Positions 7,201 to 25,176 of a stretch of 25,176 nt of DNA are shown in pieces; position 1 is the stretch's first letter; each line of letters begins with the position of its first letter. Below the pieces are notes generated by a model. That model was not told the DNA's origin. It searched no databases and saw only the letters and a program-made list of their open reading frames with translations. The translations under genes were made by a program, and so were the position numbers. Source of the DNA: a virus; the IMG/VR virus record IMGVR_UViG_3300047640_000006, positions 1 through 25,176 of that record. The stretch is one strand, 5' to 3'.

Positions 7201-8161
7201 CGTAGCTTACTGCGATGGTTCCGGTAAAAGCCTGAACCGTATAGATCCGAATATAGGGAAAACCAGCCAGGTTATACCGGGCAGCGCAAGTAGCAAGGCT
7301 GGTGGTGGTGTACTGGGTCATTTGATCCGGCGTGCTGGATAGCAGGGTGCCGGTTAGCGCGGTCCAATTTTGGCCGTCCGTCGATCCTTGTAGCTCAAAA
7401 ATGCCGCCGTAAGCAACACCCGTTGGCACAAAGTTCAGCACCAGGGTGCTCCACAAAAAGTTATCGTTGATGATGGACAACATCCCACCAGCCGTGGTGG
7501 GAATACTACCTACCCCGGTTGTGCCGGTTTGCTGGTCGTACACCGCGCCAACGGTGACCTCTAGGTTCTGATCGGAGGCGATACAAATAGGAATGGAGTT
7601 GGCCATCAGCTTTTGGCCCATCGTGAGGCTTTGGCCACTAACCTCGGTGATGTTGGCGGTTGCCGCTCCGGTGCTGTCGATGCCCAGCGTATTCGTACCG
7701 TTCCATAGTTTGACCGCTGAATCGTTGGCGACGGTCACCCGAGGAACACCTGCGCCTGATCCACCCGTGCCAGTCAAAGGAGCCGAGCCACCAATCATTT
7801 TGAGATTGGAATCAAGAGCACCAGAAGTAGAGGTCAGCGCATTGCCTGAGCCATCCTGATTTACTACAGTCGCGTGGAGCACCGCAGCAGTAGGCTGTGA
7901 TACCGTCACCGGATTGGTGATGCCCGTAACAGCGGCAACCGTCCCAATGTTCCAAGTCCCGGACTCCGTGACAGCCACAGTCCCACCAACCGAGGACACA
8001 GCGACCGTGCCGTTGACCGGCTGAGTCGTGGTGCCCGTTGGATCGGTCTTGACCGGGTGGGCGGGTGTGCCGAGTACATTGGTGCCGTCGGTGACTTCAA
8101 CCGGCCAGGCCGTTGCATTGCTACCAGGGGTCCCCTGGTTGATCGTTTCAAACACGCTCAT
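4259..8161 (-). CDS. Large repetitive tail fibre / tip-associated protein
   Basis: A 1300-residue protein rich in Gly, Ser, Thr, Asn, Ala and Val, with few charged residues. It is built of degenerate units with the signatures TDASGNLQVNI, VALGxxxxTVKAL and NPLPVxV, typical of beta-structured phage tail proteins. Two longer units each begin ITGSTGA with AQN/GQNT and LQVGGVYN following; copy 1 begins near 6020 and copy 2 near 5362. Residues about 340-640 interrupt the repeats with a different beta domain (QYVVGQKPLGTYYQGG through TYTGQNGTFLLGF). The start at 8161 has AGGAG eight bases upstream. It lies between the tail tip protein and the collagen-like fibre, so a virion side-fibre or tip-extension role is inferred. 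No enzymatic motif is seen. Confidence 0.75.
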   Translation of the reverse strand: MSVFETINQGTPGSNATAWPVEVTDGTNVLGTPAHPVKTDPTGTTTQPVNGTVAVSSVGGTVAVTESGTWNIGTVAAVTGITNPVTVSQPTAAVLHATVVNQDGSGNALTSTSGALDSNLKMIGGSAPLTGTGGSGAGVPRVTVANDSAVKLWNGTNTLGIDSTGAATANITEVSGQSLTMGQKLMANSIPICIASDQNLEVTVGAVYDQQTGTTGVGSIPTTAGGMLSIINDNFLWSTLVLNFVPTGVAYGGIFELQGSTDGQNWTALTGTLLSSTPDQMTQYTTTSLATCAARYNLAGFPYIRIYTVQAFTGTIAVSYALTTALGDEVSFTRSMQVDASGTPVDTTPSTQYVVGQKPLGTYYQGGSGSYLSVVNDMIAAAYILPKPSKIGNTIVLAVVGESLPIGPTYVTDSAGNTYTQVVPSSGVAPIMVFTAPIYAVDAEGQLGFTINTGTSSVDIVAHEYSGLITVSPLDATSSNSGTSTSGIQSVTTPTITTSAAEDMVFAILWGQGVIPDAVVNINEVYFDGSNGYICLSSPYPSAASLPVHTLFEFAGLTGNAAFLNGTGSEITAYSTSTGIIKYASTHAAATYTGQNGTFLLGFSDGPNGLLKGFGFNSNSGSQRLSFSTATMNAAYITTVDSVQATPGSTSITQNFVNLMKYQSCIVALKIAATGTLAMGMNGGVLKALATDASGNLNVNVISGGTGTGGGTTSITGSTGAVLDGGQNTTPPQNMLQVGGVYNRIAPSITAGNLTALQTDASGNLQVNIANSVPINQSGGPWAVTVTNPEGGTQYISNSTIGNPGSVEGTVALGLYANNTVKALTTDTNGNLNVNVANASTAMGPVQTAVPGDASYTGFGMNGMLVGVSSAQPLPVAVQSGAGMQYAAATAVPTPTGTVALGWDGTDVRALSTSSTGALNVAGTLTLSTGQVEITGSTGAAMDAAQNTAAPAHVLQVGGVYNSTPPSISTGDLTALQTDGLGSLKVSIAGGSYAPSVNLQSTGTALTNTSGALNVNVTNGAASNAAAAATGSTVPTSAGYTGFNSSGNLVGVSSTNPLPVTVISGSSSGGTQYTPGQLAGASVTGTVAMGAYTTTGTSTNYWTMPLVCDTTGVLLPAAQGMVATAAPTYTTGKYGLLSLNTSGGLRVDGSGVTQPVKLTDGTTAISAAISALGTAPTGTAVQAVNNVALPSAAAGAALSSRFINSNGAGICLKASSGNLYGFTLTNGSASIANVEFFNSATAPTLGTTPVVFCVTLPPSANVTISPNLALMNFSTGIGFAATSVEGGTTTAAVVGMIFFE
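4880..6020 (-). repeat. Two long degenerate repeat units inside the large tail protein
   Basis: Unit 1 (about 6020 to 5363) and unit 2 (about 5362 to 4880) share, in order, ITGSTGA...QNT, LQVGGVYN, ISTGDLTALQTD or ITAGNLTALQTD, YTGF...LVGVSS.xPLPV, and a TQY or MQY segment followed by GTVA(L/M)G. Boundaries are approximate because the units are diverged and contain smaller internal repeats of the TDxxGNLxVN type. Confidence 0.6.
5526..5552 (-). other. 11-bp perfect inverted repeat within a coding region
   Basis: The arms are 5526-5536 and 5542-5552 with a 5-base loop (5537-5541). It encodes the AQPLPVAVQ stretch of the large tail protein. The corresponding place in the second repeat unit (NPLPVTV) does not preserve it, so it is not required by the protein sequence family. 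Confidence 0.5.
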
Positions 8162-8198
8162 GTCGTTGCTCCTGCCTATATACCCAAAAGTCCGTTTG

Positions 8199-11100
8199 TT
8201 AAATTAGGTCCCAACCGTTGACGCCATTGCTGATAAACGTCGCCGACGAGAACTGATACTGGATGGTCAGGCTTGCTCCACTTCGAATGGTGTCGCCACC
8301 TGAGCCAACGATGGTGATGGTGTTGGTATCCGACGAGACCTTGCAAACCGTGATCTCACCATCAACGCTGGCAGAGGCCATCGGGAATGTGCACGTGAGG
8401 TTGCCACCGGCAGTGGATACCAGATCGCAATCCCCAGCGGCAGCCGACCAACTGGCTGAGATGTTCCGCACGGTTACTCCGGTGGTCCCAGCGGCAACAG
8501 CAACTGTGCTGATCGGCGTCCAGACTGGCGAGCCTGTGGTCCCGGTGCTATTCACCAGCACATAGCCAGGTGGCACATTGTTGATGCCATCCGCGCCCTG
8601 CAACACATTGACTGTGGAGTCGATGCTGGATACCGTGTTGCCTGGGGTGCCGGTCATAAGCAGGCCGGTACTGGCATCCACCGCGCCGCTGTTTGTGGTT
8701 TTCAACGTGAAGGACACGGCTGCCAGGTTGCTCAGCGGTTGCGGGTTGTTGCCAAAGTTGTTCAGGGCTTGGAACTTCAAATAGATCGTTTTCCCCTGCC
8801 AAAGTGGATCGTATGTGTACTTATAGATGGAGCTGTCCAGCCGCATGAACAAGGAGCCCGCAGGATGAGAGCTAATCGTTGTGCCAAGCTGCCCACGGCG
8901 AATGTAGCCGCCCATTGTGTAGGTGTTCTGGCCTGTGACCGCCGCAGCAGAGTACGAGATCACCTCGCCGTTGACGTAACAAATCATGGAGTCGCTATCA
9001 GCCGCTGCTTGGGTGCCTGATGCTAACGCTCCACTGTTCTCAACAAGCTGAACCACCAGGGAGTTGGCCGTGTCGGGGTCACTACCCGCCGGGAATGCAG
9101 CAGCGAGTTCACCCAGCACAGATGGTGATGTTAGCTGAGTGATCTGCACGTAGTTGGTGCCATCCTGCGACACCCATACATTAGTCGAACCATAGTTCTC
9201 GCCCGTGCCGCAAGCACCAATCCACAGTTGGTTACCAGCATAACCGGTGAGCCTACCAGTGGCCTCGAAGAGTACGACCTCCGATGTGCCAGGCGAAGCG
9301 TACGCGTTGGATACAACCTCTCCAGCCGACTGCCCTTTGTTGAATAGCGTGGGGCATCCAGCGCCAAAGGGATAATCCTCACATTCAAGCTTCAGCCCTT
9401 CGGTCGGATCATCGACGATCTTGGTGATTCTGACCGGAAGGTTGGTCACGCCGAGGTTGGTGTTGCTGATGCCCTGAGCCCATACGCTCGAAGTGGTGAG
9501 CGTAACGATGTCCATCGGCTCCAGATACGAATATATGAAGGGCAACGAGAACGTATACGTGTTCCGAATGTACGTCCCATGCTTCAGCCGCATGTTCGCT
9601 GCAAAGGTGGCCGCCAGCAAAGTGTGGATGAAGTCCCAGTCTTGGGGATCTTCAATCCTCGATCCATATCTATTGATCAGGCTCTGGTCCGACTCCTCGG
9701 TGATCTCTTTTGCGTATTGATTGCCACGATTATCCCACTGCACCTGCACTGAGTTGTAGCAGTCCTGCCACGCGGTGCGCTTGATCGTTACCGGATCAAC
9801 TCCATCTTTTGCGATGAAACAGGTATCATCTAGGGCGGCCACATAGATCGATGGGGCGGTCCACGTGCAACCATTTGCAGCCGTGGTGGTGTCGCCATAG
9901 GGCACAAGTTTCAGCAGGCCCTCCGAAGCAAAGGACGCGCACATACCAGCTTCCAACCATTTACTCATGGTCGAGTCGGCTGTGTCTTGGGAATCGAGAT
10001 TGGGGGAAATGAAGAAATTATTGGCTGCAAACCAATTCCACGCGGTGGAGCCAACACTCTGCACGGATGGTGTACCAGGAGCACCCCATGTTCCACCGGG
10101 GCCATTATCCAAAAACGCTGTGGGAAACGGGATCGCTCCAACGCCGAGGCCATTGACTTTATCTGTAAGCACGCGGGTCATGCATGTAACTGGATTGCAA
10201 TCCATGATTGGGGTGCCATTTGCATAAACGCCACCATAGATGTCGGGGGTGATGACCTCAAAGCTGTTTTCCTCGGGCTCACCCGCTGCGCCAAAATCCA
10301 TTGGTTCGTACAGCACGGTGGCGATGCCGCTATATCCGATCGCCGCGCCGGGATACGAACCTGACAAGAAGCTGTAAGGAGCTTGTCCGATGTTTCCGTC
10401 AGCCAGCGTAAAGTCCAACATCGTGGATTCGTCTTGGCCCACAGCATTGGGGTTCTTGATTTGAAAGGTGATGATTACCTCAGCACCAATGTCAGGTGTT
10501 GAGAATTTGTAAGTGGCGGGTGCCGAGCCGGTCTGTGCGTAGGTCCCAGCAACGGTTGGTGTACCATTCACCTTGCTCAAAGCCGTGCCAGAGTTGGCTC
10601 CCGTGCCGCTGTAAACCACTCCAAGATCGGCATTGAAGGCATAGTTAGCACCAACCTGGATAGCCTTAGCCGCAGGGACGATGTCAGTTTCCTGGTTGTT
10701 GATGGTGGTGAGAAGAAAGCTGTACGCCATCTGCACGGTCTTGCCCACATCCGCGCTGGAATAGTAGTAGAGTCCCGTGGTGGGGTTCACGCTGTAGGTT
10801 CCAGCGCTCAGCGTTGTGCCATAAGCCACCTTGGTAAAAGGGGTCGAGGTGGTGTTGGTCACCGTCGTGGATGATGGGGAGGAGTAATCGTTGTACGATG
10901 CCGAGTAGGTGCTGGTGGGCGTGACCCCATAATCGTTGGTCATGGCCGCAGCGTTGGTTGGGGTATAGGTGTACGACGGCCCAGCGATGGTATAGCTCTC
11001 GTATGCCTTCGGTGAGCCCAGCCATGATTGACCAGTCCACACATCCCCGATGCCGGAGACAGGACCAGCAGAGAGTCCAGCAATTACGTTGGCCGAGTAG

Positions 11101-13365: not shown

Positions 13366-15884
13366 TTGTTCATCCTTCGCATTGTGGCGGCCACATGCCG
13401 TTGGAATACACTGTTGTGTTTTGTAAGCACTCGATCCACGCCTTCGGCATCCACGGCATGAATCTGTGGGGAGAAGTTCCAGGTATGTTGGCCTGATGCA
13501 CCGTTGTTACCACCCCGTTCAGAGGCCTCAACCCTATCTGTCAAACTCTTTGTGATTACCGTTTCTCCGCCATGGCCAACGATAGGAACCGGACCCTCGC
13601 CAGGAATCTTTCCACCAACCTCGAAGGACATCGCCGTCGCAAAGGCTGCTGTCGCTGCTGCTGGAGCACCCATATCGGTGGGCCAGGGGGCGAGTGCAAA
13701 GCTTGCCATCATGTTCGCGCCAGCCAGGCCAGCGGCTGCTACTTGCTGCGTTTTATCTGCTGCAACTGCGGTAGCGGTAGCGGATGTGGAATCGGCTGTA
13801 TCAGCAGCCTTTTTCTGGGCCAGAATGCCCAGATGCCGGGCCAGCTTCATGGCGTCGGTGATGATGGTCTTTTCGAGTTCCTGGGTCAGCATCGAGATCA
13901 TGGCCTCAAGCATCTGGGCGGCTTCTTGCCGCACGGCTTTACCGAGGCTCTTGTTTTCCACGATGCATTTTGCCATCGAATTCCCAAATGTATTTGTGAA
14001 TTGCGTGACCGAAGATTGCAGCGTTGTACGTATCTGCGTGCTCAAGTCCTTGGTTTCCACCTTCATCTTCGCGAAGTAAGTCGACCAGGAAGAATTGAGC
14101 TTGGACATGTCGGTCTGGAGGCTTTTAAGTTCGGTGCCGTATTGGGTGGTAAGGGCATTGAGCTGCCCTTGTAACTGAATCTTCTTGGCCAGGGCAGCAT
14201 TCTCGGCTGACACATTACCCGCACCGCTGGCTACATTGGCCGATTGCTGCTGTGCTGCGATCTCCTCTTGCAAAGCGCGAATCTTGGCGGTACGCTCGCG
14301 TTCGGTGAGAGCAATCTTCTCCTCGATGAATCGGCGCTCAGACTCAAGGCCAAGGGCATGTGCGGTGTTGTTGGCTGCCTCATCTGCCTTGATAGCTTCG
14401 AGCGTTTTTGACTGCTCAAGTTTTGCTGTTGCTTCCGCCAGGCTCGCAGTTGATTTGCTCAACTCAACGGCCATTGCACGCTTCCGCTCTTGCGTGGCCA
14501 TCCACTCCTGCAAGGTTGTTTGGTTCAACTCATCGAGAGCAGAAACCTCACTACGGTTGAGAGAGGCTATCTCTGCGTTGTAAGCAATAGTTAGCTGTTT
14601 TTGCTTATCCTTATCCCCCGCGTTGGCGGCATACTCATGATCGTAAAGATCAGATGCGATATGCTTCAGTCGCTCGGCGTTGTCCAGGGCGTTGGCGTAG
14701 ACAGCATTGTTGTAAGCTTGCTCAGCATCGTACTTCTTATCCGGGTCGTTCGTCCCTTCATCTTTAATCTCGGCCAGTTTGGCCACGGCATCAAGATGTG
14801 TTTTGGTGGCCTCCGACGCCTTAGTTGCTCCTGAAGCGATGGCCTTATATTGCGCGGCTTCCTGCTTCAACGGTTCAAGATTTGCATGACCTTGCTCCAG
14901 GCCCGCGATGACTTTCTTTTTGCCGCCTGCTTCGATTGCAAGGTTGAGGTCTTTGATCTCGTTGGCGGTAGATGCAGCCATTGTGCCAAGCCGGACTAGC
15001 TCCTCGTTATTGCCATAAAAAGCGTGCTGGGAATTTGATAGCGCTACCTGCTGCTGGCGGAGGGCAGTAATGAGTCCATTCTGGGCGGCTTGCTGGCTTG
15101 CCGAGTTCATAGGCGCTTCAGCCAAGTTTTGACGGGCCTTTTGAACGTCCACCATCTTCGCTTCCAGCGCGTCGAGCACCTGCTTCTGCATGGCAGCAAA
15201 ACCAGCCGCAATAGGTACACCCATGCTCAAGGCATCAACAGCGCCGCGCTTAAAGGCAGCCCACCATCCCGAGGATGCGGCGATGGACTCATGCATCTTT
15301 TGCATATCCGCAGCGAAGGTGGCAGCGAGGCGATCGATCTCCTCCGAGGTTTCGAGGATGGCCTCCTTCATATAGTTATGGCCTGGTTTGTGCTCCAGCT
15401 TTGCGATCTGATCGTCGAGCTTGAGGTTGGTGAGTTCCAGAGCCTTACCCTGGTCGGCCTCTTTCATCGCCGCATTTTCTGATTCTTCGGCGGCCTTGCG
15501 GATGGCTTCGGCAGCCTTTTCATGTTTCTCGATTAGCTCGCCAACGATCTTGATCGCTACGGCTACGCCAGCAATTGGCAGCATCAGGGCGAATGCCTGG
15601 CCCACACCAGGGATGGTTGCGATCAGGGAGTTGAGATGTCGCGGCAGGCGAACACCGAGTGAATCCTCGACCAGCATGAGGCCACCAGTAGCCTCGTGCA
15701 TGGACGCATTGATGCCCCGGCCAGCTTCACCCGACTTATCTTTTAGCTTGTCAAGCTCAGACTGAACCTTGCCCATGTCCTCAGAAAATTGGGCGGTTTC
15801 AGCCTGCAGCCGAACCACAAGGGAGCCTATTTCGCTCGTATAGCTACCCGCCTTTCTTGGGCTGCCCGACGTGCGGCTGTCCAT
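13362..15884 (-). CDS. Tail tape measure protein
   Basis: An 840-residue protein with the composition of a tape measure: long Ala/Glu/Lys/Gln-rich helical stretches (about 20-65, 115-200, 240-620), a hydrophobic segment at about 87-118 (IPGVGQAFALMLPIAGVAVA) and another at about 205-235. Residues 19-50 (IGSLVVRLQAETAQFSEDMG) match the conserved start of many tape measure proteins. It sets tail length and is ejected during DNA entry. It follows the tail chaperone genes and precedes the DUF2460 gene, as expected. The ATG at 15884 has AGGGG seven bases upstream but lies inside the homing endonuclease gene, so the first ~18 residues share DNA with the endonuclease C-terminus. A start further downstream cannot be excluded. 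Confidence 0.92.
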   Translation of the reverse strand: MDSRTSGSPRKAGSYTSEIGSLVVRLQAETAQFSEDMGKVQSELDKLKDKSGEAGRGINASMHEATGGLMLVEDSLGVRLPRHLNSLIATIPGVGQAFALMLPIAGVAVAIKIVGELIEKHEKAAEAIRKAAEESENAAMKEADQGKALELTNLKLDDQIAKLEHKPGHNYMKEAILETSEEIDRLAATFAADMQKMHESIAASSGWWAAFKRGAVDALSMGVPIAAGFAAMQKQVLDALEAKMVDVQKARQNLAEAPMNSASQQAAQNGLITALRQQQVALSNSQHAFYGNNEELVRLGTMAASTANEIKDLNLAIEAGGKKKVIAGLEQGHANLEPLKQEAAQYKAIASGATKASEATKTHLDAVAKLAEIKDEGTNDPDKKYDAEQAYNNAVYANALDNAERLKHIASDLYDHEYAANAGDKDKQKQLTIAYNAEIASLNRSEVSALDELNQTTLQEWMATQERKRAMAVELSKSTASLAEATAKLEQSKTLEAIKADEAANNTAHALGLESERRFIEEKIALTERERTAKIRALQEEIAAQQQSANVASGAGNVSAENAALAKKIQLQGQLNALTTQYGTELKSLQTDMSKLNSSWSTYFAKMKVETKDLSTQIRTTLQSSVTQFTNTFGNSMAKCIVENKSLGKAVRQEAAQMLEAMISMLTQELEKTIITDAMKLARHLGILAQKKAADTADSTSATATAVAADKTQQVAAAGLAGANMMASFALAPWPTDMGAPAAATAAFATAMSFEVGGKIPGEGPVPIVGHGGETVITKSLTDRVEASERGGNNGASGQHTWNFSPQIHAVDAEGVDRVLTKHNSVFQRHVAATMRRMNK

Positions 15885-16570
15885 GGTTTGCCCCTGGTAG
15901 CGTCAGCCCCAGCGGCCTGAAACTTAGTAAGATTCTCGCGAGGATGCACTGCAAGGTATGCCTTCAACGAGGTGCTTGTTTTTGCTTTTTGCTCGGGGGT
16001 GATTACCTGCTTTGCCCTTTGCCTCTTGATTCGTGCTTTATCCTCTGGCGTCCAGCGGGGCCGCCCCTTTTGCGTAGCAGAACTCTTGGCTTTAGCCTCA
16101 TTGGACATGTGCGCACCAACCAAACGTCTACATACAGCTTCGAGCCGCCTAGCCTCAAAGTGGGGGTCCGAGTGCAAGTTGTACATCGTTTTACTGCGGG
16201 CCTCCTTACAGGCCTGAGTCATAGGCAGGCGGTTCTCAACCATCTTCCGTCTGGTCTCCAATGTGTGCTTGTGCCCCATAATGCCGTCCCCACCAGCGGT
16301 GAGGTTGTATCCAAACCTTTGGTCATTGGTTTTCATGCCTGCGATGAAGTCGCATTCTGCCTGCTTCATCTCTTCGGCTGAGTCACCCCTCCATACTGTG
16401 AGGACATCAAACGCGTCGGCACCGTACTTACGTATTGCACGGTGGAAGTAAAACTGAGAGCCAGCCTTTGCGTTGCTGCAATGGCGCTTGAACCTCACTG
16501 GAGCCGTATCTTTAGTCCAGCCCACATAGGCTTTGCCATTCGATTTGTTCAGAGCGAAATAGACTTCCAT
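15827..16570 (-). CDS. GIY-YIG homing endonuclease with NUMOD-type DNA-binding tail
   Basis: A 247-residue free-standing homing endonuclease. The GIY-YIG domain occupies about residues 1-96: the GIY-like strand is VYFALN (Tyr4), the YIG-like strand AYVGWT (Tyr15), the conserved basic residues fall in RFKRH (26-30), the catalytic glutamate is Glu72 in QAECDFI and Asn89 is in GYNLTAGGDG. The rest is basic with repeated short helices (HTLETRRKM, MSNEAKAKSS, ITPEQKAKTS) like NUMOD3 repeats that wrap DNA. Such enzymes nick or cut related genomes lacking the gene and spread by repair. It sits between the tail chaperone and tape measure genes and overlaps the latter by 58 bases. The catalytic residues look intact. 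No intron is required because both flanking frames are complete. Confidence 0.9.
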   Translation of the reverse strand: MEVYFALNKSNGKAYVGWTKDTAPVRFKRHCSNAKAGSQFYFHRAIRKYGADAFDVLTVWRGDSAEEMKQAECDFIAGMKTNDQRFGYNLTAGGDGIMGHKHTLETRRKMVENRLPMTQACKEARSKTMYNLHSDPHFEARRLEAVCRRLVGAHMSNEAKAKSSATQKGRPRWTPEDKARIKRQRAKQVITPEQKAKTSTSLKAYLAVHPRENLTKFQAAGADATRGKPWTAARRAAQERRVAIRAK

Positions 16571-16603
16571 TGATTCGTGCCCTCTAGTGATGCATTCGGT
16601 AGG

Positions 16604-17164
16604 TCACTTGTTGCTCTCTTCTTCCGTGGGTTTTAGGTGAGGCCACACGCTATCAAATAAGGCTTCCGCGTTGGCGTACTTACTCGCGGTTAGGTCAGCG
16701 ATGACCTTCAGGCGAACGTCCAAATACTTAGCCCTGGTGGTGGTCATTGGAAGTTGGCCAATGACCTTCTTGATGTGCTTCTTGCCCTCGCGGACCTTCT
16801 CCAGCTTGGCCGATTCTTTTTCATCCCGAATGAAATCGAAGGCGCTGAAAGTGGGGGAATCCTCGCTGCCCCGGACCGAGTTGTATACAGCCGATGCGGT
16901 CAGGGCGTTGGCATATCGGTCGTACTTGATAGCTACATTCCGCCGCTTGCATAATGCCTGGAACATACCAGGAGTCAAATCCCAAAACTCATCGAGGGTG
17001 AGGTGTAAGTCGTACCTTGCCATCGCAAAATACTCAAGCCATGTCTCCGGGGGCTGCTCTATGCGGTCGCGGGGACCGCTGGTACGTTTGGGTCGGCTGT
17101 TGCACCCGTAGCCTTCTGCTCCTCCAGAAGCTTCTGATAGGCTTCTTTTGCGCCGGGGAAACAC
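16604..17164 (-). CDS. Tail assembly chaperone, frameshift extension (gpT-like)
   Basis: This frame has no credible independent start: it opens with a GTG inside the preceding chaperone gene and lacks a ribosome site. It is in the -1 frame relative to that gene and overlaps it by 106 bases, with a perfect slippery heptamer at 17155-17161. The expected product is a fusion of the first 107 residues of the upstream protein with the 183 residues read after the slip, about 290 residues in total. The extension contains ETWLEYFAMARYDLHLTLDE and a helical C-terminus (SKYANAEALFDSVWPHL), as in gpGT-like chaperone tails. The longer form is thought to bind the tape measure protein and recruit tail tube subunits. 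It is read only when ribosomes slip. Confidence 0.85.
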   Translation of the reverse strand: MFPRRKRSLSEASGGAEGYGCNSRPKRTSGPRDRIEQPPETWLEYFAMARYDLHLTLDEFWDLTPGMFQALCKRRNVAIKYDRYANALTASAVYNSVRGSEDSPTFSAFDFIRDEKESAKLEKVREGKKHIKKVIGQLPMTTTRAKYLDVRLKVIADLTASKYANAEALFDSVWPHLKPTEEESNK

Positions 17165-17475
17165 AGTTCGAAGAGCTTATCGGAGAGGATGCGCTGAGCC
17201 TCGGGGTTGAGAATGTCGAGTACGCGGTCAACCTCAACCTCGGGGTTGAAACGCTGCAATGCACCCCAGATGATCTTTGCGAAATGCTTGCCCGAGGAGA
17301 TGTCTTTCCAGGCTTCAATCTTCTTCAGGTCAAGACCGGTGGCATCCTCAATGCGAGCGAGAGCGCGGTAATCAAGGCATAGCTTCCAATCCTCTGGAGG
17401 GGTGCCATCTTCCTTGTCGATTGTGATCCTAAAGTGTGGCGTGATCGCCAATTTTAGTACTGTGTCATCGGTCAT
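17059..17475 (-). CDS. Tail assembly chaperone, short form (gpG-like)
   Basis: A 138-residue protein between tail tube and tape measure genes, the position of lambda gpG and its analogues. It contains a beta-rich N-terminus (LKLAITPHFRITIDKEDG), then ALARIEDATGLDLKKIEAW and a helical segment LNPEAQRILSDKLFELCF. It coats the tape measure protein during tail assembly and is not usually part of the virion. The C-terminal tail after the slippery site (ATGATADPNVPAVPATA) is Ala/Pro-rich, as often seen where the zero frame is dispensable. The ATG at 17475 has AGGG seven bases upstream, and this sits in one arm of a hairpin. Confidence 0.85.
   Translation of the reverse strand: MTDDTVLKLAITPHFRITIDKEDGTPPEDWKLCLDYRALARIEDATGLDLKKIEAWKDISSGKHFAKIIWGALQRFNPEVEVDRVLDILNPEAQRILSDKLFELCFPGAKEAYQKLLEEQKATGATADPNVPAVPATA
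17155..17161 (-). promoter_or_regulatory. Programmed -1 frameshift site TTTCCCC
   Basis: On the minus strand the zero-frame codons TGT TTC CCC create T TTC CCC, a perfect X XXY YYZ heptamer. After slipping one base back, the pairing of both tRNAs is kept (TTT and CCC). It lies 32 codons before the zero-frame stop and at the very beginning of the -1 open frame, the arrangement of tail chaperone genes in siphoviruses. No other heptamer in the overlap satisfies the rule. Confidence 0.85.
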
Positions 17476-17480
17476 TTATG

Positions 17481-17519
17481 CACCCTATATAAGTTAGGGT
17501 GGGGGCCGGAACCCCCACC
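17481..17519 (-). promoter_or_regulatory. Two mutually exclusive hairpins between tail tube and tail chaperone
   Basis: Hairpin B (arms 17512-17519 and 17498-17505, eight perfect G/C-rich pairs, six-base loop) is transcribed first. Hairpin A (arms 17495-17501 and 17481-17487, seven perfect pairs, seven-base loop) comes next, and its 3' arm TAGGGTG contains the chaperone ribosome site. The two share bases 17498-17501, so both cannot be complete at once. Hairpin B is not followed by a run of U, so a strong terminator is unlikely. Control of the tail tube to chaperone ratio by translation or mRNA stability is a plausible role. Confidence 0.6.
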
Positions 17520-17532
17520 GTGTTGAGGTTAC

Positions 17533-17952
17533 TTACACGTACACCTTGGGGCCGGAAATCTTGATCTTCAAATCGAAGGTCGCGTTCTTCTCCAGCGGCC
17601 AACTCGGCGTGAACGACTCGATGATTCCGCTGAACGAGCAGGTGTTTGCCGTGCCATACAGGGCCTTCATGGGTACGAGAGCGCCGGATAGACGGAGGGC
17701 TTCAAGCGCTACCTGAGTCGTATCCCCAGGCAAAAACCAGCCCTTAACATCGGCTGTACCTGGGTCCTGGGTCGAACTGTTGAATGTATCAACGCCGCTG
17801 ACGGTGGCCATGGTCGTTGTCTTTTCCGTCGCCACTTTGTCGCCAGAGATAGCGATGGAGGTTACGCCAGCGAGAGTGGTGAAGGTGGTAGGGCTTGCAG
17901 TGGTGGCAAATTCAAAAGAATCGCCGATACCGGTGATGGGCTGCTGGGACAT
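17533..17952 (-). CDS. Major tail tube protein
   Basis: A 139-residue protein with the composition and position of a siphovirus tail tube subunit: beta-rich, N-terminal TGIGDSFEFATTASPTTFTTL, a central loop with KTTTMATVSGVDTFNS, and a C-terminal PLEKNATFDLKIKISGP strand pair. It polymerises into hexameric rings around the tape measure protein. The ATG at 17952 is preceded by GGCAGGAG, the strongest ribosome site in this part of the window, in keeping with high expression. It follows the glycosyltransferase gene after two bases and precedes the tail chaperone. There is no sheath gene, so the tail is non-contractile. Confidence 0.85.
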   Translation of the reverse strand: MSQQPITGIGDSFEFATTASPTTFTTLAGVTSIAISGDKVATEKTTTMATVSGVDTFNSSTQDPGTADVKGWFLPGDTTQVALEALRLSGALVPMKALYGTANTCSFSGIIESFTPSWPLEKNATFDLKIKISGPKVYV

Positions 17953-17954
17953 AG

Positions 17955-18695
17955 TTAGGCTCCTGCCTTACTTCTTGATTTTGACTTGGGTTTGGCGACA
18001 ACCTCGGGGGCTATCGCCGCGTAGAACGCAGCGGGTAAATCTTCCTTCGGCACCGAGGGGAATTGGCGATGGATGCCTAGCTGCCCAGGGTGGCAAACGC
18101 TGCTATCGTGGGCCCGTGCTACCAGTAGTTGTGCTCCATCGATGCTGTCCAACTCGTTGTTGTTCAACGCTTCGAGCTGGAAGGAATAATCCTCAATCCC
18201 TGAGGTCGGGTAGTTGTGCTGCTCCCACCAGGCCTTGGTGTAGCATTGGCTTGATCCGCAGGCATAGGGTGGGTGGGGACGATTGGGCTCATAGTGGTAT
18301 CTGTAGGTGCCGCTGTTGCCGCAGTCGAAGTACAGAATCGAGTGAAATCCGGTTACTGCTTTACCCGTTGAGGTAAGTCGAGCCACCTGGATGGTGATGC
18401 GATCCGGAGAAGAATAATCATCCTCATCCAGGTTTACGATGATGTCGCCGGTAGAGTAAGAGGTCCCCAGGTTGCGAAGAGCACCCACCGGCATACGATC
18501 GCAATGGTGGTACTGCACGCGGGGATCATCTGGGAGCAGACTGGGGTCCAGGGGAGTCTCGTTGTTATCCAGGATCACCAGTTCAAGTTCGCCTTCGTAA
18601 GTGGAGGCAAGGAATGCATCAGCAGCAACGCGGAAGTATTCCTCGCCGTAGCCGACCGGGAGAATCCCACTAACTTTGGGTAGATCAGATGCCAT
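17955..18695 (-). CDS. Family 2 (GT-A fold) glycosyltransferase
   Basis: A 246-residue protein with the GT2 plan: an N-terminal SGILPVGYGEEYFRVAADAF (first strand and helix), LELVILDNNE at 37-46 (nucleotide-binding aspartate near 43), PVGALRNLGTSYSTGDIIVNL at 69-89, then LDEDDYSSPDRI with the metal-binding DxD at 90-93. A later acceptor-side region contains GIEDYSFQLEAL (the ED motif). The C-terminus is Lys/Ser-rich. It transfers a sugar from a nucleotide sugar, but donor and acceptor cannot be told. It sits in the structural module between a neck gene and the tail tube, overlapping the small gene before it by 11 bases, so it is co-expressed with virion proteins. Glycosylation of a tail or head protein is an inference; modification of host surface sugars is an alternative. 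Confidence 0.83.
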   Translation of the reverse strand: MASDLPKVSGILPVGYGEEYFRVAADAFLASTYEGELELVILDNNETPLDPSLLPDDPRVQYHHCDRMPVGALRNLGTSYSTGDIIVNLDEDDYSSPDRITIQVARLTSTGKAVTGFHSILYFDCGNSGTYRYHYEPNRPHPPYACGSSQCYTKAWWEQHNYPTSGIEDYSFQLEALNNNELDSIDGAQLLVARAHDSSVCHPGQLGIHRQFPSVPKEDLPAAFYAAIAPEVVAKPKSKSRSKAGA

Positions 18696-18864: not shown

Positions 18865-19332
18865 TTAACCCTTCTTGTTTTGTAGATCGAGCAAAAGTGC
18901 GATGGCCTCAGTTTCAAAAACTGCCAAACACTCATCTTTACTGGACTCCCATGCCCGTTGAAGCCAATGTGTTGGAGCTTGGTGCACGCTACCAAATTCA
19001 CTGATCGATCCCCAAAAGTAATTCTTCTGCGGCCCGATCTCCATGATGAGAGTTGACTCACCATCGCCAGTCGCCCATCGGTCTTTTTGCATCATCAGAG
19101 CAGCTTCGAGCACACCAGCAGCAACAGGTACCGTGCTGTGAGCTGCATCCAATACCACCTGCGCAGCGGGAATCGCAACACGCTCAAGGTAGCGTTTAGC
19201 TGCACGGGTAGTCTCCTGAGTTAAGAGCTTGGAGAGTTCCGCTAGGCCATCGATGTGGATAGCTTCAGCCACGTGCACCTCGTTAAGGCGCGAACAAACA
19301 GCTTTGAATATTGGAGGGACAGGAGAGTGCAT
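18865..19332 (-). CDS. HK97 gp10-like neck/tail completion protein
   Basis: A 155-residue protein matching the HK97 gp10 family in layout: IHIDGLAELSKLL near the start, a helical middle ending VVLDAAHSTVPVAAGVLE, then a strand IGPQKNYFWGSISEFGSVHQ and a C-terminal THWLQRAWESSKDECLAVF helix. The W/G-rich EFGSxxxxxxHWLxRAW region is the best family mark. It acts at the head-tail junction or tail end. The ATG at 19332 has no good ribosome site. A GTG about 60 bases downstream (MAEAIHIDGL reading, preceded by GAGG) is a credible alternative start and would give the length usual for the family. Confidence 0.75.
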   Translation of the reverse strand: MHSPVPPIFKAVCSRLNEVHVAEAIHIDGLAELSKLLTQETTRAAKRYLERVAIPAAQVVLDAAHSTVPVAAGVLEAALMMQKDRWATGDGESTLIMEIGPQKNYFWGSISEFGSVHQAPTHWLQRAWESSKDECLAVFETEAIALLLDLQNKKG

Positions 19333-19445: not shown

Positions 19446-19862
19446 TCAATCGAAGTAGAATACACGGAATTGCAAATAGGCCCCGTAGACAAAAGATTTG
19501 GAGCCTTCCTCGTAACGGTCATCCCAGTCTTTATCCACGATGACTCCATCCACCACAGTCCCATCGGGCAGGGTACCCTTATAGCTGCCGAGGTACGTCC
19601 GTACCGCCTTGGCGATGGTGCGAGAGCCATAGTAGCTGGTCGAGTAGCACACAATTTGAAACACGGCTTCGCGCTTTTGGGTGGGACCGGACATGGCATA
19701 GGTGTCGGCAGTCGATACGCGGCTGAAAACGAGGAATGGGAGGACTGAACCCTGGGGGGCGAGTACCCACCAGGCTTTGGTGGTGCCATTCACATCCGCG
19801 CCAACCGCTGCTTGGATCGTTGGGTTCAGGGTTACGAGTTGAAACAATCCTTGCTCGATCAT
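19446..19862 (-). CDS. DUF3168 tail terminator / tail completion protein
   Basis: A 138-residue protein starting MIEQGLFQLVTLNPTIQAAV. The start is chosen at 19862 because it overlaps the stop of the head closure gene as ATGA; a longer frame exists upstream. Family marks of DUF3168 are LPFLVFSRVSTADTYAMSGP, the FQIVCYSTSYYGSRTIAKAVR helix, and the DRYEEGSKSFVYGAYLQFRVFY ending. Proteins of this family cap the tail tube and join it to the head. A 113-base stretch without a gene follows before the gp10-like start. Confidence 0.85.
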   Translation of the reverse strand: MIEQGLFQLVTLNPTIQAAVGADVNGTTKAWWVLAPQGSVLPFLVFSRVSTADTYAMSGPTQKREAVFQIVCYSTSYYGSRTIAKAVRTYLGSYKGTLPDGTVVDGVIVDKDWDDRYEEGSKSFVYGAYLQFRVFYFD

Positions 19863-20230
19863 TTGTTCACCGTATCGTTCCCAACCCAACTCCAGATATG
19901 TAGTTCTTGGCGGTTGCCGTCGGGATCAGAGAAGCTTTCGATGTTGTGGCGCTGGCCGCGTACAAGGATGTTCATCCCGGTGTCGACAGACCAGGTCTGG
20001 GGCCAACGGAGGATTATCTTGTAGCTGGAGATCGCATCTAGGGTTTGCGCCTTATCCTCTTGTTTGCCGCGCCACATGGACACGTTGGCCCATGTAGTCG
20101 CCACAGCCACCTCGGGCAAAGGCGTACCATCTGCACCGTTTCCCGCATTTGGCTGGGTGAACGTTACCTGCGTGTTGTAATCGGTCGACCCGTTGTAGCG
20201 GGTGCCCCAAGGTTGTCTCGGCAGCTTCAT
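19859..20230 (-). CDS. Head closure / head-tail adaptor protein (SPP1 gp16-like)
   Basis: A 123-residue protein of the phage head-tail joining family (PF05521-like). Marks are VATTWANVSMWRGKQEDKAQ early, then SSYKIILRWPQTWSVDTGMN and ILVRGQRHNIESFSDPDGNRQELHIW, the beta-barrel core of this family. It forms a ring under the connector that closes the filled head and docks the tail. Its start overlaps the connector stop by four bases and its stop overlaps the start of the DUF3168 gene. Confidence 0.85.
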   Translation of the reverse strand: MKLPRQPWGTRYNGSTDYNTQVTFTQPNAGNGADGTPLPEVAVATTWANVSMWRGKQEDKAQTLDAISSYKIILRWPQTWSVDTGMNILVRGQRHNIESFSDPDGNRQELHIWSWVGNDTVNK

Positions 20231-20940
20231 CGTGGAATCCTCATGCTGCGGAAGCTGTTCAGCATCCGGCGCAAGGTCATGCCAACCTCGCTCGTTGGCT
20301 CAACACTAATGATCTGGCGCACGTTATACATGTGATTTGCGAGGTAAAGGATCGCCATGGTGAGCCGTGCGGGTACCTGCGTCGGATCGTCGGCGCTGTA
20401 GCCTGCGTCGTAGGTTACCTGGATGCAGTCCTGCCTGCGATCGGTCAATGGCCATACCTGGCCGACGTTGAGCGTGATCTTGTCGGCGAACACGGTGTAG
20501 GTTGATGGATCAAGCGTTTGGAGCACGCCCTGGGGGTCGTTATAGCTCACGGTGACAGCATTTATCAGAGGTGAACCTGAGGGCACAACGACCGGACGAC
20601 GCACCAACTCGATGCTGTCCAAGGTTGGAAAACCATACCAGAAGAGGTTGGTCATGTACGCATAGTTGAGCGCCATAAATTCCTGACGTGGGTCGGCTTG
20701 GCCGGGGAACCAGTCAAAGGTGAGCAGCACCTGCTCGTTGAGGCAAGCCGTGGCAGCCATACTTTCTACTTCGTCGGTGGCGGCGTCGATCATGGTGAGC
20801 AGCATCTGGTAGTCATCTGTGAGCACCGCTGGGGAGCTGCCGTATTGATACTTTTGTGGTAAATCGAATCTGCCAAAACTGGAAAGCTGTTCGGGCGTCA
20901 CCACTGGGGTGGAACGTGGCGTGATTATCTGTTCGTACAT
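20227..20940 (-). CDS. Head-tail connector protein (HK97 gp6 / phiE125 gp8-like)
   Basis: A 237-residue protein. The C-terminal half is the recognisable part: CIQVTYDAGYSADDPTQVPARLTMAILYLANHMY followed by a helix, the pattern of gp6-like connectors. The segment AVTVSYNDPQGVLQTLDPSTY is the typical strand pair before it. Residues about 40-80 (LTDDYQMLLTMIDAATDEVE) match the N-terminal helical bundle. It forms the ring between portal and head closure protein. The start is supported by GGAG eight bases upstream. The gene begins only 14 bases after the protease stop, where a major capsid gene would normally intervene. Confidence 0.87.
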   Translation of the reverse strand: MYEQIITPRSTPVVTPEQLSSFGRFDLPQKYQYGSSPAVLTDDYQMLLTMIDAATDEVESMAATACLNEQVLLTFDWFPGQADPRQEFMALNYAYMTNLFWYGFPTLDSIELVRRPVVVPSGSPLINAVTVSYNDPQGVLQTLDPSTYTVFADKITLNVGQVWPLTDRRQDCIQVTYDAGYSADDPTQVPARLTMAILYLANHMYNVRQIISVEPTSEVGMTLRRMLNSFRSMRIPR

Positions 20941-20954
20941 AGCAAACGCTCCGG

Positions 20955-21731
20955 CTACTTCCGACGGTTGATTTCCAACTGGTGAGCAAACAGGCTGAGG
21001 TCTGGAGCTTCGGCGACGATCGCAGGAGGCTCTTCAATGGGCTCTTCAATGGGCTCTTCAATGGGCTCTTCAATGGGCTCTTCAATGGGCTCTTCAACGG
21101 GCTCTTCAGCCTTTGCCTCGATCTTCAGAGCATCGGGCGCGTTGCGGAAGATGGACAGATCAAAGTCATTCTTCACGGCGGCCTTGTCCTTGCTCACCGC
21201 AGTGGCAAAGCCATTTGCAACGGCCTCGTCTGCAGTCATCCAAGTCTCGGCGTTCATCATCTCCAGGACCTTATCGGTGGGCAGGCCGGTCTTAGCTGCG
21301 TACACATCAGCGATCGATGCGGTGACTGTATCGAGCGTGTCCGCCATTTTTCGAAAGTCGGAAGCGCTGCCCATTGTTCCAGCTTGTGCCGGGTGGATCA
21401 TCATCACGCTACCGCTATGCATGGTGATTGTGTCCCCGGCCATGGCGACGATTGAGGCAGCGGAGGCAGCAAGGCCCACAACGTTGACGATGACCTTCTT
21501 GTTGGACTGGACCAGCACATTGCGGATTGCAACACCGCAAAAGGCATCGCCACCAGGTGAGTTGATGTTCAGCGTTACGGACTTGCAGTCCGATTCTTTG
21601 AGGGCGTTGGACACCATGGACTCAGTGATCCCGTCACCGTAGCCGGTATCACCGATGTAGTCATACATGTCCAGCGATAGCGTGCCGTTGGAGATGCTCG
21701 CGTTGAAGAATCTATTCTTGTTTTTGGGCAT
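20955..21731 (-). CDS. ClpP-like (S14) prohead maturation protease
   Basis: A 258-residue protein with a ClpP fold at about residues 10-195. The oxyanion glycines are in NSPGGDAFCG (57-66), the catalytic serine is expected at 90 in GLAASAASIVAMAG, and the histidine at 113 in MMIHPA; the downstream Asp is probably in the ADVYAAKTGLP region. In HK97-type phages such proteases remove the scaffolding domain of the major capsid protein during head maturation. After the protease domain comes an acidic tail with about six EEPI repeats (about residues 208-235) and a short end APDLSLFAHQLEINRRK. It starts two bases after the portal stop. Its normal substrate gene is not found next to it. Confidence 0.9.
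   Translation of the reverse strand: MPKNKNRFFNASISNGTLSLDMYDYIGDTGYGDGITESMVSNALKESDCKSVTLNINSPGGDAFCGVAIRNVLVQSNKKVIVNVVGLAASAASIVAMAGDTITMHSGSVMMIHPAQAGTMGSASDFRKMADTLDTVTASIADVYAAKTGLPTDKVLEMMNAETWMTADEAVANGFATAVSKDKAAVKNDFDLSIFRNAPDALKIEAKAEEPVEEPIEEPIEEPIEEPIEEPIEEPPAIVAEAPDLSLFAHQLEINRRK
21028..21108 (-). repeat. 12-base tandem repeat, about 6.75 copies
   Basis: The plus-strand unit GGCTCTTCAATG is repeated at 21028, 21040, 21052, 21064 and 21076 without change; the sixth copy (21088) has ACG instead of ATG at its end, and a partial seventh follows to 21108. It encodes the EEPI (one EEPV) repeats of the protease tail. Identical copies point to recent expansion by slippage. Confidence 0.95.
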
Positions 21732-21733
21732 TG

Positions 21734-23413
21734 CTAATCTCCGTCCACAGCCAGTGCGATAAGTGCTACACGGGCTTCTTCATCCGTTAAATCTTTGCGT
21801 GAATCGACATATAAGGTTGCGGTGGTGAGGTCGATGTTGAGCACCTCCGCAACGAACTTGGCATCTACCTTACCTTTAGCTTCTTTGCGGGCGACGCGAT
21901 CAGCCATAGAGTTCGCCAGGGCGTTCAGGCGGGCGTTAGGCTTGGCAGGCTTGGGTGGTGCAACCCTCTTGGTGGGAACAGGCTTCACAGGCTTGGCGGG
22001 CACAGGGTGCTTGAAGGGAGGCTCGGTATTACCATCACCATCACCGGCTGCATCTGCACCAGGCTGATTGGGATCAGACTCACCTGATTCCTCATTTGCA
22101 TCATCAGGATCATCCGCATCAGGTACCTTTTGGCCGGGGATGAAAAACTCACCCGTAACTGGGTTGTAGATGGCACCATTGGCCGGGCCTGAAAGGAAGT
22201 CTCCGCCCTCGATGGCATCACGATCCTCCAGGAGGCGGGCCTCGTTGGGTGTCATCTGCCACGCGTTGATTAACGCCACATTGGTTTGCGCCCGCTCCTT
22301 GGGCGAACCACGCAGGATAATATCAGCACTGTGTTTCGCGTAAAGCGTACCCCACTGCTTTTTGGGGATCAGATCGCGAGTGATCGATTGCTCGATTGCA
22401 GTTGTAAAAGGCAGTAAGCAACACGCGAAATACTCATCCAAAAATGCTGAGCTACTGGCATAGGTGGAGTTTTGCTCCCCAAGGCCCATCTTCACCAGAA
22501 GCGGCGCTCCACCAAGGAAGCGAACGACCTCCTGCTCGGACCACTTACGAGACTCAAGCAATTGTGACTCGGCGGCGTTGAAGGTCATCTTCTCCCACTT
22601 GCCCCCACCTGGAATGATGGAAAACTTGCCTGCGTTTTGGGAGCCGCTGAAATCCCTGCGGAGCCGATCAACGATACCTTGTGCTTCCTTTTCGTCCGGG
22701 GCGTTTTCAATATCGGGGAAAGAAATGAAGCCCCCCATACCCAGGCCGTTGGCAAAGTTCCTTCCGGCAACCTCTTCGGCTGCCATGAGGAGGGACAATG
22801 CCTCTTTTGCCAACAAGATAGTGGAGGAACCCTCCAGGCCGAAGCCTTCGAGATTGGTTGATGCGACATGCCATATTTGATCTTGGGTAAACTCCTGCGT
22901 CCCACCTGGGCCCGCATTGGTGTACCGATACTTGAGGGTAGGCGGATTGGTACTTCTATCCCAAAAGGGGGTGGTATGCCACGCGTTCAAGGGAATCAAT
23001 GCCTGTAGGTCGCCCGCCTGGTCCATGATCTTTTGGCAATAGCAATTGGATGCCATGATCAACTGGGAAGCGAGGAACCAACGCATCTGGTAGCTGGTCT
23101 GATATTGGTTGGGGCAATCTTTGAGTAAGGTATACAGGGGCTCATCAATCGCGGGCTGGGTACGCTGAACACCCTTCACCTTCTTGGTTTCACGAAGGAT
23201 CAGAGGCATTTTTGCGAGATCATTGCTCAGCATTTTGACGCCGCCCAAAAAAGCTGATACGCGGATAGCCGTCTCGCGGGTAACCACCTTGCCAGAGGCT
23301 GCGGGCAGCCCAACTAAGGCCTGGACCAAATCGGAGGAGGGGGACGCGAGCGTGCTCTCCCCGTTGTTGAGGAAGGTGGCAGTAGCCGCTCTAAATCGTG
23401 TAAATATTCCCAT
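21734..23413 (-). CDS. HK97-family portal protein
   Basis: A 559-residue portal of the HK97 family. Conserved regions are ETAIRVSAFLGGVKMLSNDLAKMPL (about 45-70), QMRWFLASQLIMASNCYCQ, LIPLNAWHTTPFWD, IWHVASTNLEGFGLEGSSTI, GGGKWEKMTFNAAESQLLE and RKWSEQEVVRFLGGAPLLV, and FLDEYFACCLLPFTTAIEQSITRDLI with its usual long helix. The core ends near residue 425. The last ~130 residues are unusual: an Asp/Glu-rich linker, a Pro/Lys repeat segment (PAKPVKPVPTKRVAPPKP) and a charged helical end. It forms the dodecameric DNA channel at one head vertex. The ATG at 23413 is preceded by AAGAGAG. It lies upstream of the protease with a two-base gap. Confidence 0.93.
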   Translation of the reverse strand: MGIFTRFRAATATFLNNGESTLASPSSDLVQALVGLPAASGKVVTRETAIRVSAFLGGVKMLSNDLAKMPLILRETKKVKGVQRTQPAIDEPLYTLLKDCPNQYQTSYQMRWFLASQLIMASNCYCQKIMDQAGDLQALIPLNAWHTTPFWDRSTNPPTLKYRYTNAGPGGTQEFTQDQIWHVASTNLEGFGLEGSSTILLAKEALSLLMAAEEVAGRNFANGLGMGGFISFPDIENAPDEKEAQGIVDRLRRDFSGSQNAGKFSIIPGGGKWEKMTFNAAESQLLESRKWSEQEVVRFLGGAPLLVKMGLGEQNSTYASSSAFLDEYFACCLLPFTTAIEQSITRDLIPKKQWGTLYAKHSADIILRGSPKERAQTNVALINAWQMTPNEARLLEDRDAIEGGDFLSGPANGAIYNPVTGEFFIPGQKVPDADDPDDANEESGESDPNQPGADAAGDGDGNTEPPFKHPVPAKPVKPVPTKRVAPPKPAKPNARLNALANSMADRVARKEAKGKVDAKFVAEVLNIDLTTATLYVDSRKDLTDEEARVALIALAVDGD

Positions 23414-23432: not shown

Positions 23433-23783
23433 TTAGTAAGCTGCATTGCAGGTGGCGGAACCATCTTGCGTGGACTCTTTCAGCGGATCGTATCCGTAAA
23501 GTATTCGCTGGCCCTTGAGCCTCAAGCCACGCTCCATGCCGAGGCCCGCATCGTGTAGGACCTTCTCCCATTTGGCCTCTTCGGTGGATTGATTCGACCG
23601 CTGCTTTAGCGGGCGGCCAACATGCACTCCATGCACACCGGCCTTACAAAGGATGTGGCTGATCCGCGATTGTGAAACCTCAAAATGGGCAGCAAGCTCC
23701 GATTGCAGCATGGTTGGATTGGTGGTGGCGAAGGCTAGAACAGCCTCGTAACTCAGTGTGCGTTTACGTCCACGGATGGTCAT
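23433..23783 (-). CDS. Small helix-turn-helix DNA-binding protein
   Basis: A 116-residue protein starting MTIRGRKRTLSYEAVLAF. This start is chosen because the ATG at 23783 comes one base after the terminase stop (TAA at 23785-23787); a longer frame runs back into the terminase gene. Residues about 10-48 (EAVLAFATTNPTMLQSELAAHFEVSQSRISHILCKAGV) are a clear helix-turn-helix of the winged or homeodomain-like kind, with recognition helix QSRISHIL. The rest is basic then polar without a recognised domain. Its place between terminase and portal is not the usual place of a small terminase subunit, which normally precedes the large one. It could still be a packaging factor, or a regulator of the late operon. 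Confidence 0.65.
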   Translation of the reverse strand: MTIRGRKRTLSYEAVLAFATTNPTMLQSELAAHFEVSQSRISHILCKAGVHGVHVGRPLKQRSNQSTEEAKWEKVLHDAGLGMERGLRLKGQRILYGYDPLKESTQDGSATCNAAY

Positions 23784-23784
23784 T

Positions 23785-25059
23785 TTATGCGCTCGCGATC
23801 CAGAATGGTTTCTTAGGTTTGATTTGGTTGACGGGATCGGTGGCACGTGCCAACGACATAACTAGAGAGGCGCAGGCGTCGATCTTTTCTCGCTTGCGAT
23901 CTCGGGCTGGTTTGATAAATCCGGTTCCCGGCTGGGTGTTCCAGCGAAGGTTTGAAATCTGCCATCTCATGCAAGGATTGCCAGAATGAGCAAACTCTCG
24001 GCGCAGAACCTTGCGCATAAGTTCCTGGCAGGGGGCATTCATTTTGGCGAATGACTGGGGATAGTCAACGAGCTTGTTCATTGGGAAGCCAGACTCACCC
24101 AGCATCCGGATCAACTCAGATGACCAGGCTGCATCGTAGGCAATCTCGCGGAGGTCGAATAACTTGGTTATCGTGGTGATTTGGTCGGCGATGTACCGCA
24201 CATCGGTCAGGTTCCCAGGTGTTGGAACGATGAAGCCATCGCGGGCAAAAATATCGTAAGGGACATGGTCGCGCTTTACGCGGTCCTGAATGTTATCCGC
24301 CGGGCACCACAAATACTCTAAAATTGACCACTTTTCGGTCGTTTTAGAGGGCGGAAACAGTAATACTAGGGCAGAAGTGTCAACTTTGGGTGCTAAGTCG
24401 ATGCCACCAAAACAAGCCCGGCCTTTGAGGGATTCGATTAGCTCAGCGCGGAGGCGCTTTGGGTCGGGATGGGTAGAGAGGGGCTCCGTGCAGCAAGCGT
24501 CCCAGGTCTCGATGTCGAGGGCTGGCAAACTTGCTGCATCACTCCACAAATTCATGCGGAACCGGAGAAACTCACCTAGGGCTGTTGGTTTGCCTTGACT
24601 TTCTGCATACTGATTCTCTAAGGCGGATAGGGGCAGGATGTAGCCGAGGGAAGGGTTGGGCTTTACCCAATTCTTCCGGTCTTTGTAGGAATCTTTGGGG
24701 TCCATGCAGAAGATAAAACCGGTGACCTCATCATCCTCGATCATTCCGTCGAGGATGCGAGTTATATACTCTCGCTCACCCCAGCAAAGTGTGGATTTGT
24801 TCTCGTTCGCACCGGCAGTTGTGATGCTCCACAGTAGGGGCTGTTTGCGTGTATCGCCGCCATATCTTAGGATGCTCCATAGGTTATCCGTAAGTTTCCA
24901 ACGATGAAGTTCGTCGCAGCAGGCCATGGAGACTACCTGGCCATCGGATGAGTCAGCACCGCGTGCCATTGGAGTGAGGCGTGAGTTAGTCTCGGAGACA
25001 AACAACGAGAGCACAGGAGAGTTGCCATACTTATGGATGGCTGCACTCAGTGTCATCAA
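23785..25059 (-). CDS. terL: Terminase large subunit, N-terminally incomplete
   Basis: A 424-residue remainder of a COG4626-type terminase. Walker B is ACCDELHRW (Asp49, Glu50), preceded by the typical SRLTPMARGADSSDGQ, and the coupling motif is SITTAG at about 78-83. The RNase H-like nuclease acids are in FGGIDLAPKVDTSAL, EIAYDAAWSSELI and KIDACASLVMSL. The Walker A P-loop and about 110-130 residues that should precede it are absent: an in-frame TGA (25060-25062) stands directly before the TTG/ATG pair, and the 117 bases upstream encode nothing like a terminase. No ribosome site precedes the ATG at 25056. The full enzyme pumps DNA into the head and cuts it. Here it may be a downstream exon of an intron-split gene, or a broken gene. 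Confidence 0.88.
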   Translation of the reverse strand: MMTLSAAIHKYGNSPVLSLFVSETNSRLTPMARGADSSDGQVVSMACCDELHRWKLTDNLWSILRYGGDTRKQPLLWSITTAGANENKSTLCWGEREYITRILDGMIEDDEVTGFIFCMDPKDSYKDRKNWVKPNPSLGYILPLSALENQYAESQGKPTALGEFLRFRMNLWSDAASLPALDIETWDACCTEPLSTHPDPKRLRAELIESLKGRACFGGIDLAPKVDTSALVLLFPPSKTTEKWSILEYLWCPADNIQDRVKRDHVPYDIFARDGFIVPTPGNLTDVRYIADQITTITKLFDLREIAYDAAWSSELIRMLGESGFPMNKLVDYPQSFAKMNAPCQELMRKVLRREFAHSGNPCMRWQISNLRWNTQPGTGFIKPARDRKREKIDACASLVMSLARATDPVNQIKPKKPFWIASA

Positions 25060-25176
25060 TCATCTGAAAGCGTAGTTTTCTGAGCAATTGCCGGTATAGA
25101 AAAGCTTGATATCATCCGCGCCGAAGGCGCAATCATCGGTCGCTCATCGTCAGCAATGCCGGAAGTTGTAAGGTAT
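25060..25176 (-). other. Non-terminase sequence before the truncated terminase
   Basis: All three minus frames were read. The terminase frame gives stops, then TDDCAFGADDIKLFYTGNCS and a final stop at 25060-25062. A second frame is open from the window edge to two adjacent stops but shows no P-loop. The third has several stops. One GC-rich small hairpin (GCGC CTTCG GCGC) is present. The stretch is compatible with the 3' part of an intron or of another inserted element, but the piece is too short to identify. Confidence 0.35.

Follow-up and report, generated by a model that had tools for sequence, protein, structure and literature searches.

Head module of a soil phage fragment without a detectable major capsid gene, and relocation of the capsid gene among its relatives

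The window, the whole stretch of DNA that was analysed, is an IMG/VR record in full (25,176 b); it is classed linear and therefore very likely a fragment. The record breaks inside the gene of the large terminase (TerL), and its head and tail genes are all located on the minus strand with the right-to-left order TerL C-terminal part, HTH-like, portal, ClpP-like protease, connector, head closure, tail terminator and neck. The order from portal to tail terminator had been proposed in the initial annotation, and PHROG and Pfam matches agreed with it and identified the neck gene as well. The remaining part of TerL, 23785..25059 (-), comprises the end of the ATPase domain and the whole nuclease domain (phrog_9, 3e-90; PF20441, 9e-30), with a PF03354 match to positions 104-177 of 178. 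The N-terminal half, Walker A included, is missing, the TerL proteins of relatives having 577-593 aa. In the TerL/portal interval, a small HTH-like protein is encoded at 23433..23846 (-), with a weak HTH_5 match below the cut-off; its homologues occupy the same place in relatives and are kept in much of the lineage. The portal gene, 21734..23413 (-), matches phrog_12 (4e-78) and PF04860 (8e-63), and the gene of the ClpP-like serine head maturation protease, 20955..21731 (-), matches phrog_94 (5e-68) and PF00574 (2e-28). The protease C-terminal tail contains an EEPI repeat encoded by a 12-b tandem repeat of 6.8 copies found by TRF at 21028..21108 (-), and the length of the protease in relatives ranges from 234 to 327 aa. 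The head-tail connector/adaptor follows at 20227..20940 (-) (phrog_442, 5e-12; 51-87% identity across 20 loci), then the head closure protein at 19859..20230 (-) (phrog_25, 1e-8), the tail terminator at 19446..19862 (-) (phrog_347, 9e-9, for the longer TTG ORF) and the neck/tail completion protein at 18865..19332 (-) (phrog_5, 1e-5).

Beyond the neck gene, the window contains a family-2 glycosyltransferase gene, the major tail protein gene at 17533..17952 (-) (phrog_158, 1e-8), a GIY-YIG endonuclease gene and tail genes. The glycosyltransferase gene (17955-18695), located between the neck and major tail protein genes, is conserved lineage-wide at this unusual site and could possibly serve virion glycosylation. 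The GIY-YIG homing endonuclease gene (15827-16570) immediately precedes the tape measure gene within the tail module; in this phage lineage, several sites frequently carry endonuclease genes.

The protease stop codon TAG, at 20957-20955, and the connector ATG, at 20940-20938 (minus strand), are separated by the 14-b spacer CCGGAGCGTTTGCT, 20954-20941 (-), which contains a GGAG ribosome site 8 b from the ATG. The spacing given in the initial annotation was thus confirmed. In the HK97-type head module, the gene of the major capsid protein (MCP) usually stands right after the protease gene, although this is not obligatory. It was found there neither in the window nor across the lineage, where the protease and connector genes are adjacent. 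The search for relatives yielded 20 connector loci (51-87% identity) and 34 protease loci. In the 22 loci with the capsid gene before TerL, the protease-connector gap has a median of 3 b and extends from -4 to 12 b, with the exception of two outliers, L152 (149 b) and L154 (433 b), which leave no room for a capsid gene; a gap of 167 b was found in L024, among the shorter fragments. In classical-order relatives, the same gap is of 1465-1494 b and has the MCP gene inside. The dN/dS values of window genes against relatives, where computable, are 0.04-0.25, indicating from sequence comparison that the genes around the junction are maintained by purifying selection. With the junction conserved in relatives and its neighbours under purifying selection, the earlier view of a clean junction showing no random decay holds.

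The PF05065 search of the whole 25,176-b record gave no match, nor did profiles for TerS and for the MCP of this lineage searched against the six frames of the window, in which the positive controls, protease (5e-82) and TerL (1e-193), were both recovered. The initial statement that the window has no detectable HK97-type capsid gene therefore stands. A PF05065 MCP is present in all relatives reaching upstream of TerL and in a prophage of a bacterial genome.

Members of the lineage come from soil metagenomes, apart from one in the genome of an acidobacterium. When IMG/VR was scanned with a capsid profile, 80 loci were obtained, and these were sorted by profile-based layouts. Three placements of the capsid gene were seen directly. 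In 27 MCP-bearing contigs and one prophage, the MCP gene is directly upstream of TerL, and TerS precedes it in all capsid-before-TerL contigs that extend to this point. In L162 and L165, the MCP gene separates TerL from portal. L150 and L151 have it after the tail terminator, adjoined by TerS and by an HNH-like protein with no Pfam match; L147, with the order TerS-MCP-GIY-YIG-neck, probably has the same arrangement, its contig stopping short of the tail terminator. In these last three contigs, the TerS-MCP pair is just upstream of the homologue of the window neck gene. Exactly one PF05065 gene was found in 18 of the 30 records of relatives; the records of close relatives devoid of it are short, or begin inside or just before TerL, and L115 starts within the last 31 codons of an MCP gene upstream of TerL. 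The records found by the connector that extend upstream of TerL all have the MCP gene there, in single copy. No MCP-bearing relative in this lineage has it between protease and connector. The lineage MCP matches phrog_10 "major head protein" (2e-42) and PF05065 (3e-33), with an N-terminal extension of ~130 aa ahead of the PF05065 domain, and the lineage TerS matches phrog_83 (about 1e-13).

In the portal tree, the window portal nests within the capsid-before-TerL clade. Its nearest neighbours by portal are L001 and then L143 (86% identity over aligned columns), and the proteins of the nearest relative are 82-87% identical to those of the window. L001 starts in the HTH gene and continues with portal, protease and connector. 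L110, from a different sample, contains MCP-TerL-HTH-portal start, and its last 680 b are exactly those with which L001 begins. Joined together, the two contigs give MCP-TerL-HTH-portal-protease-connector for the closest known relative, in which the protease-connector spacer is of about 11-14 b depending on how the stop codon is counted. The prophage, G125, was found on a 105.7-kb contig by a profile search of 396 Acidobacteriota genomes, in which it was the one relative. It exhibits TerS (14361-14780), MCP (15260-16459) and TerL (16530-18299), and reads in one piece from the integrase to TerS-MCP-TerL-portal-protease-connector-closure-terminator-MTP-TMP-tail, with a protease-connector gap of about 0. 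This contiguous order argues strongly against an artefact of viral-contig assembly. No further relative was found in 398 genomes of the family of the G125 host, nor by a portal alignment scan of genome contigs. Because of this prophage and of the more distant lone capsid genes of Acidobacteriaceae described below, the window phage, a siphovirus-like member of a soil lineage, probably infects Acidobacteriota.

Taken together, these data lead us to regard the window, with high confidence, as a fragment of the TerS-MCP-TerL lineage with its own TerS and MCP genes beyond the record end. TerS and MCP are both absent from the window, which the TerS-MCP-TerL order predicts when the cut falls inside TerL. 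Among the options initially offered, that of a capsid gene moved outside the window is upheld by the relatives, which carry it between TerS and TerL and, as in the comparison then suggested, show the same near-gapless junction in contigs having the capsid gene upstream of TerL. The order in the window phage would be TerS-MCP-TerL-HTH-portal-protease-connector-head closure-tail terminator, with its own capsid gene just upstream of TerL. Portal, protease and MCP with an N-terminal extension are standard parts of the HK97-type prohead. To judge from these families, the window MCP would have the standard HK97 fold and an N-terminal delta-like region, and the protease would process it in trans inside the prohead, head assembly then proceeding as in HK97-type phages. 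Adjacency of protease and MCP genes is not needed, since proteins from the same operon do not have to be encoded side by side. The earlier argument was sound in taking an intact protease as a sign of a substrate somewhere.

A defective prophage or helper-dependent element truly without a capsid gene, which had been among the options together with the use of another phage's capsid, would account for 25 kb without such a gene. Moreover, head-module deletion derivatives exist in the same lineage, which counts against our explanation. L119 (985-4281) and L120, from two IMG samples and identical over 4136 b, lack MCP, the N-terminal half of TerL and the genes from portal to neck; their layout is TerS, a 145-aa ORF, the TerL C-terminal half, and HTH joined to the end of the glycosyltransferase gene, followed by an HNH-like ORF and the major tail protein gene. 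We consider a capsid-less element improbable, however, since the remaining head genes of the window are intact and under purifying selection, the nearest relatives with the same junction carry the MCP gene upstream of TerL, and the record, an open fragment, stops within TerL. As the near-gapless junction recurs in independent contigs having a capsid gene, neither the defective prophage nor the borrowed capsid was retained. The record end itself also weighs against the TerS-MCP-TerL fragment reading. The terminal 117 b, 25060..25176 (-), upstream of the readable TerL frame, have no homology to the N-terminal half of TerL in relatives and contain stops in all three frames ahead of LSAAIHKYG, and, counted from the reversed record end, blastn homology to relatives is not seen before about base 127. 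As these bases are not TerL, an insertion or a rearrangement could account for the break just as a contig end could, and the 117 b may correspond to an insertion, an intron or a chimeric contig end. The Rfam search of the TerL break, group I/II introns included, gave no match, and an exact pattern from the last bases of the window retrieved no extending contig from IMG/VR.

An assembly deletion between protease and connector had also been envisaged, and the tandem repeat, located ~75 b inside the protease end, would offer a place for a collapse. This is hardly credible given that the gapless junction is found in many independent contigs of other samples which have the capsid gene, and in a bacterial genome, with no MCP-bearing relative of the lineage placing it at this site; a collapse at the repeat was dropped because the junction is conserved. 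We give equally little credit to a highly diverged or fused capsid protein hidden among the window proteins, several of which have no family match. The genes from TerL to 17059-17475 and the tape measure gene have counterparts in relatives with a separate PF05065 gene, and there is one such gene per MCP-bearing record, excepting L170. In this locus (7101-8297, G045), otherwise intact-looking, a frameshift splits the capsid gene into two PF05065 pieces. The missing capsid gene has an ordinary cause, the position of the contig end, and it is the head module that is unusual, its capsid gene having been relocated more than once.

The portal tree places the relocated lineage in one supported clade, the rest being classical-order phages, and the relocated forms likewise make one clade in the MCP tree; both trees were built by short searches, have SH-aLRT as their sole branch support and include some long outgroup branches. 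Mapping the four capsid positions on the portal tree requires three changes. The classical order was found in distant annotated relatives, Acutalibacteraceae phage NatCom_11578 and Desulfofustis phage LS06-2018-MD02. Since sister phages keep the classical protease-MCP-connector order, the shift would be derived and lineage-wide, and the sequences are best read as a departure from the classical site followed by at least one further move within the lineage. Reading of the sequences beside TerS-MCP indicated HNH-like genes in L139/G006, G016, L150 and L170, and a GIY-YIG gene in G004; L147 has a GIY-YIG gene at this place as well. From this adjacency, endonucleases are possible agents of the capsid gene moves. 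We suggest tentatively that the capsid gene, often accompanied by TerS and close to a homing endonuclease gene, might be a movable cassette with three or more sites in an otherwise collinear head-neck operon. If so, head assembly would be indifferent to the position of the capsid gene, and structural genes that are essential could be reshuffled by endonuclease-linked recombination.

The portal, protease, MCP, connector, head closure and TerL families are the same in this lineage as in the HK97-type head module. The difference is in the order, TerL-portal-protease-MCP-connector in NatCom_11578 and LS06-2018-MD02 versus MCP between TerS and TerL here. In the prophage segments LC2/LC3 of Methylobacterium nodulans ORS 2060, the capsid gene is also reported ahead of the portal gene; it has a greater length there and a fused protease domain, with no separate protease, whereas two genes are present here (PMC11409702). 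Phages of Virfam Siphoviridae Type 1 Cluster 6, such as AchV4, have an unusual head-neck gene order too; the displaced gene in those phages is that of the adaptor Ad1, which stands between terminase and portal, and here it is the capsid gene (PMC7996906). The Acidobacteriota proviruses of groups (i)/(ii), which are tailed and from acidobacterial soil hosts, may be compared with the window phage in these traits (PMC11924767). A literature search limited to open-access papers gave no direct precedent for a capsid gene upstream of the terminase. The analysis replaces a false "capsid-less phage" by a well-supported capsid gene relocation, with three non-classical positions in one lineage. Pipelines that call the capsid by synteny, or completeness by the protease-MCP-connector block, will misread this lineage, which also offers a natural set of variants in which the effect of position within the head operon on capsid dosage could be tested.

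Lone HK97-type capsid genes were observed in Acidobacteriaceae chromosomes and viral contigs (L132-L137; L172-L175, L182 and perhaps L176), for example that of Occallatibacter savannae (L132, 9539-11062; PF05065, 9e-44). No relatives of terminase, portal or protease were found near them on the stretch examined (~10 kb on each side in chromosomes), and five of the six genomes carrying them gave no PF04860 portal match genome-wide. These capsid genes may possibly represent a capsid-encoding satellite or a domesticated capsid. Their loci share a conserved trio, ORF~170 - ORF~130 - MCP (in 7, 11 and 12 of 12 loci), often with an integrase and sometimes with a tape-measure-like gene nearby.
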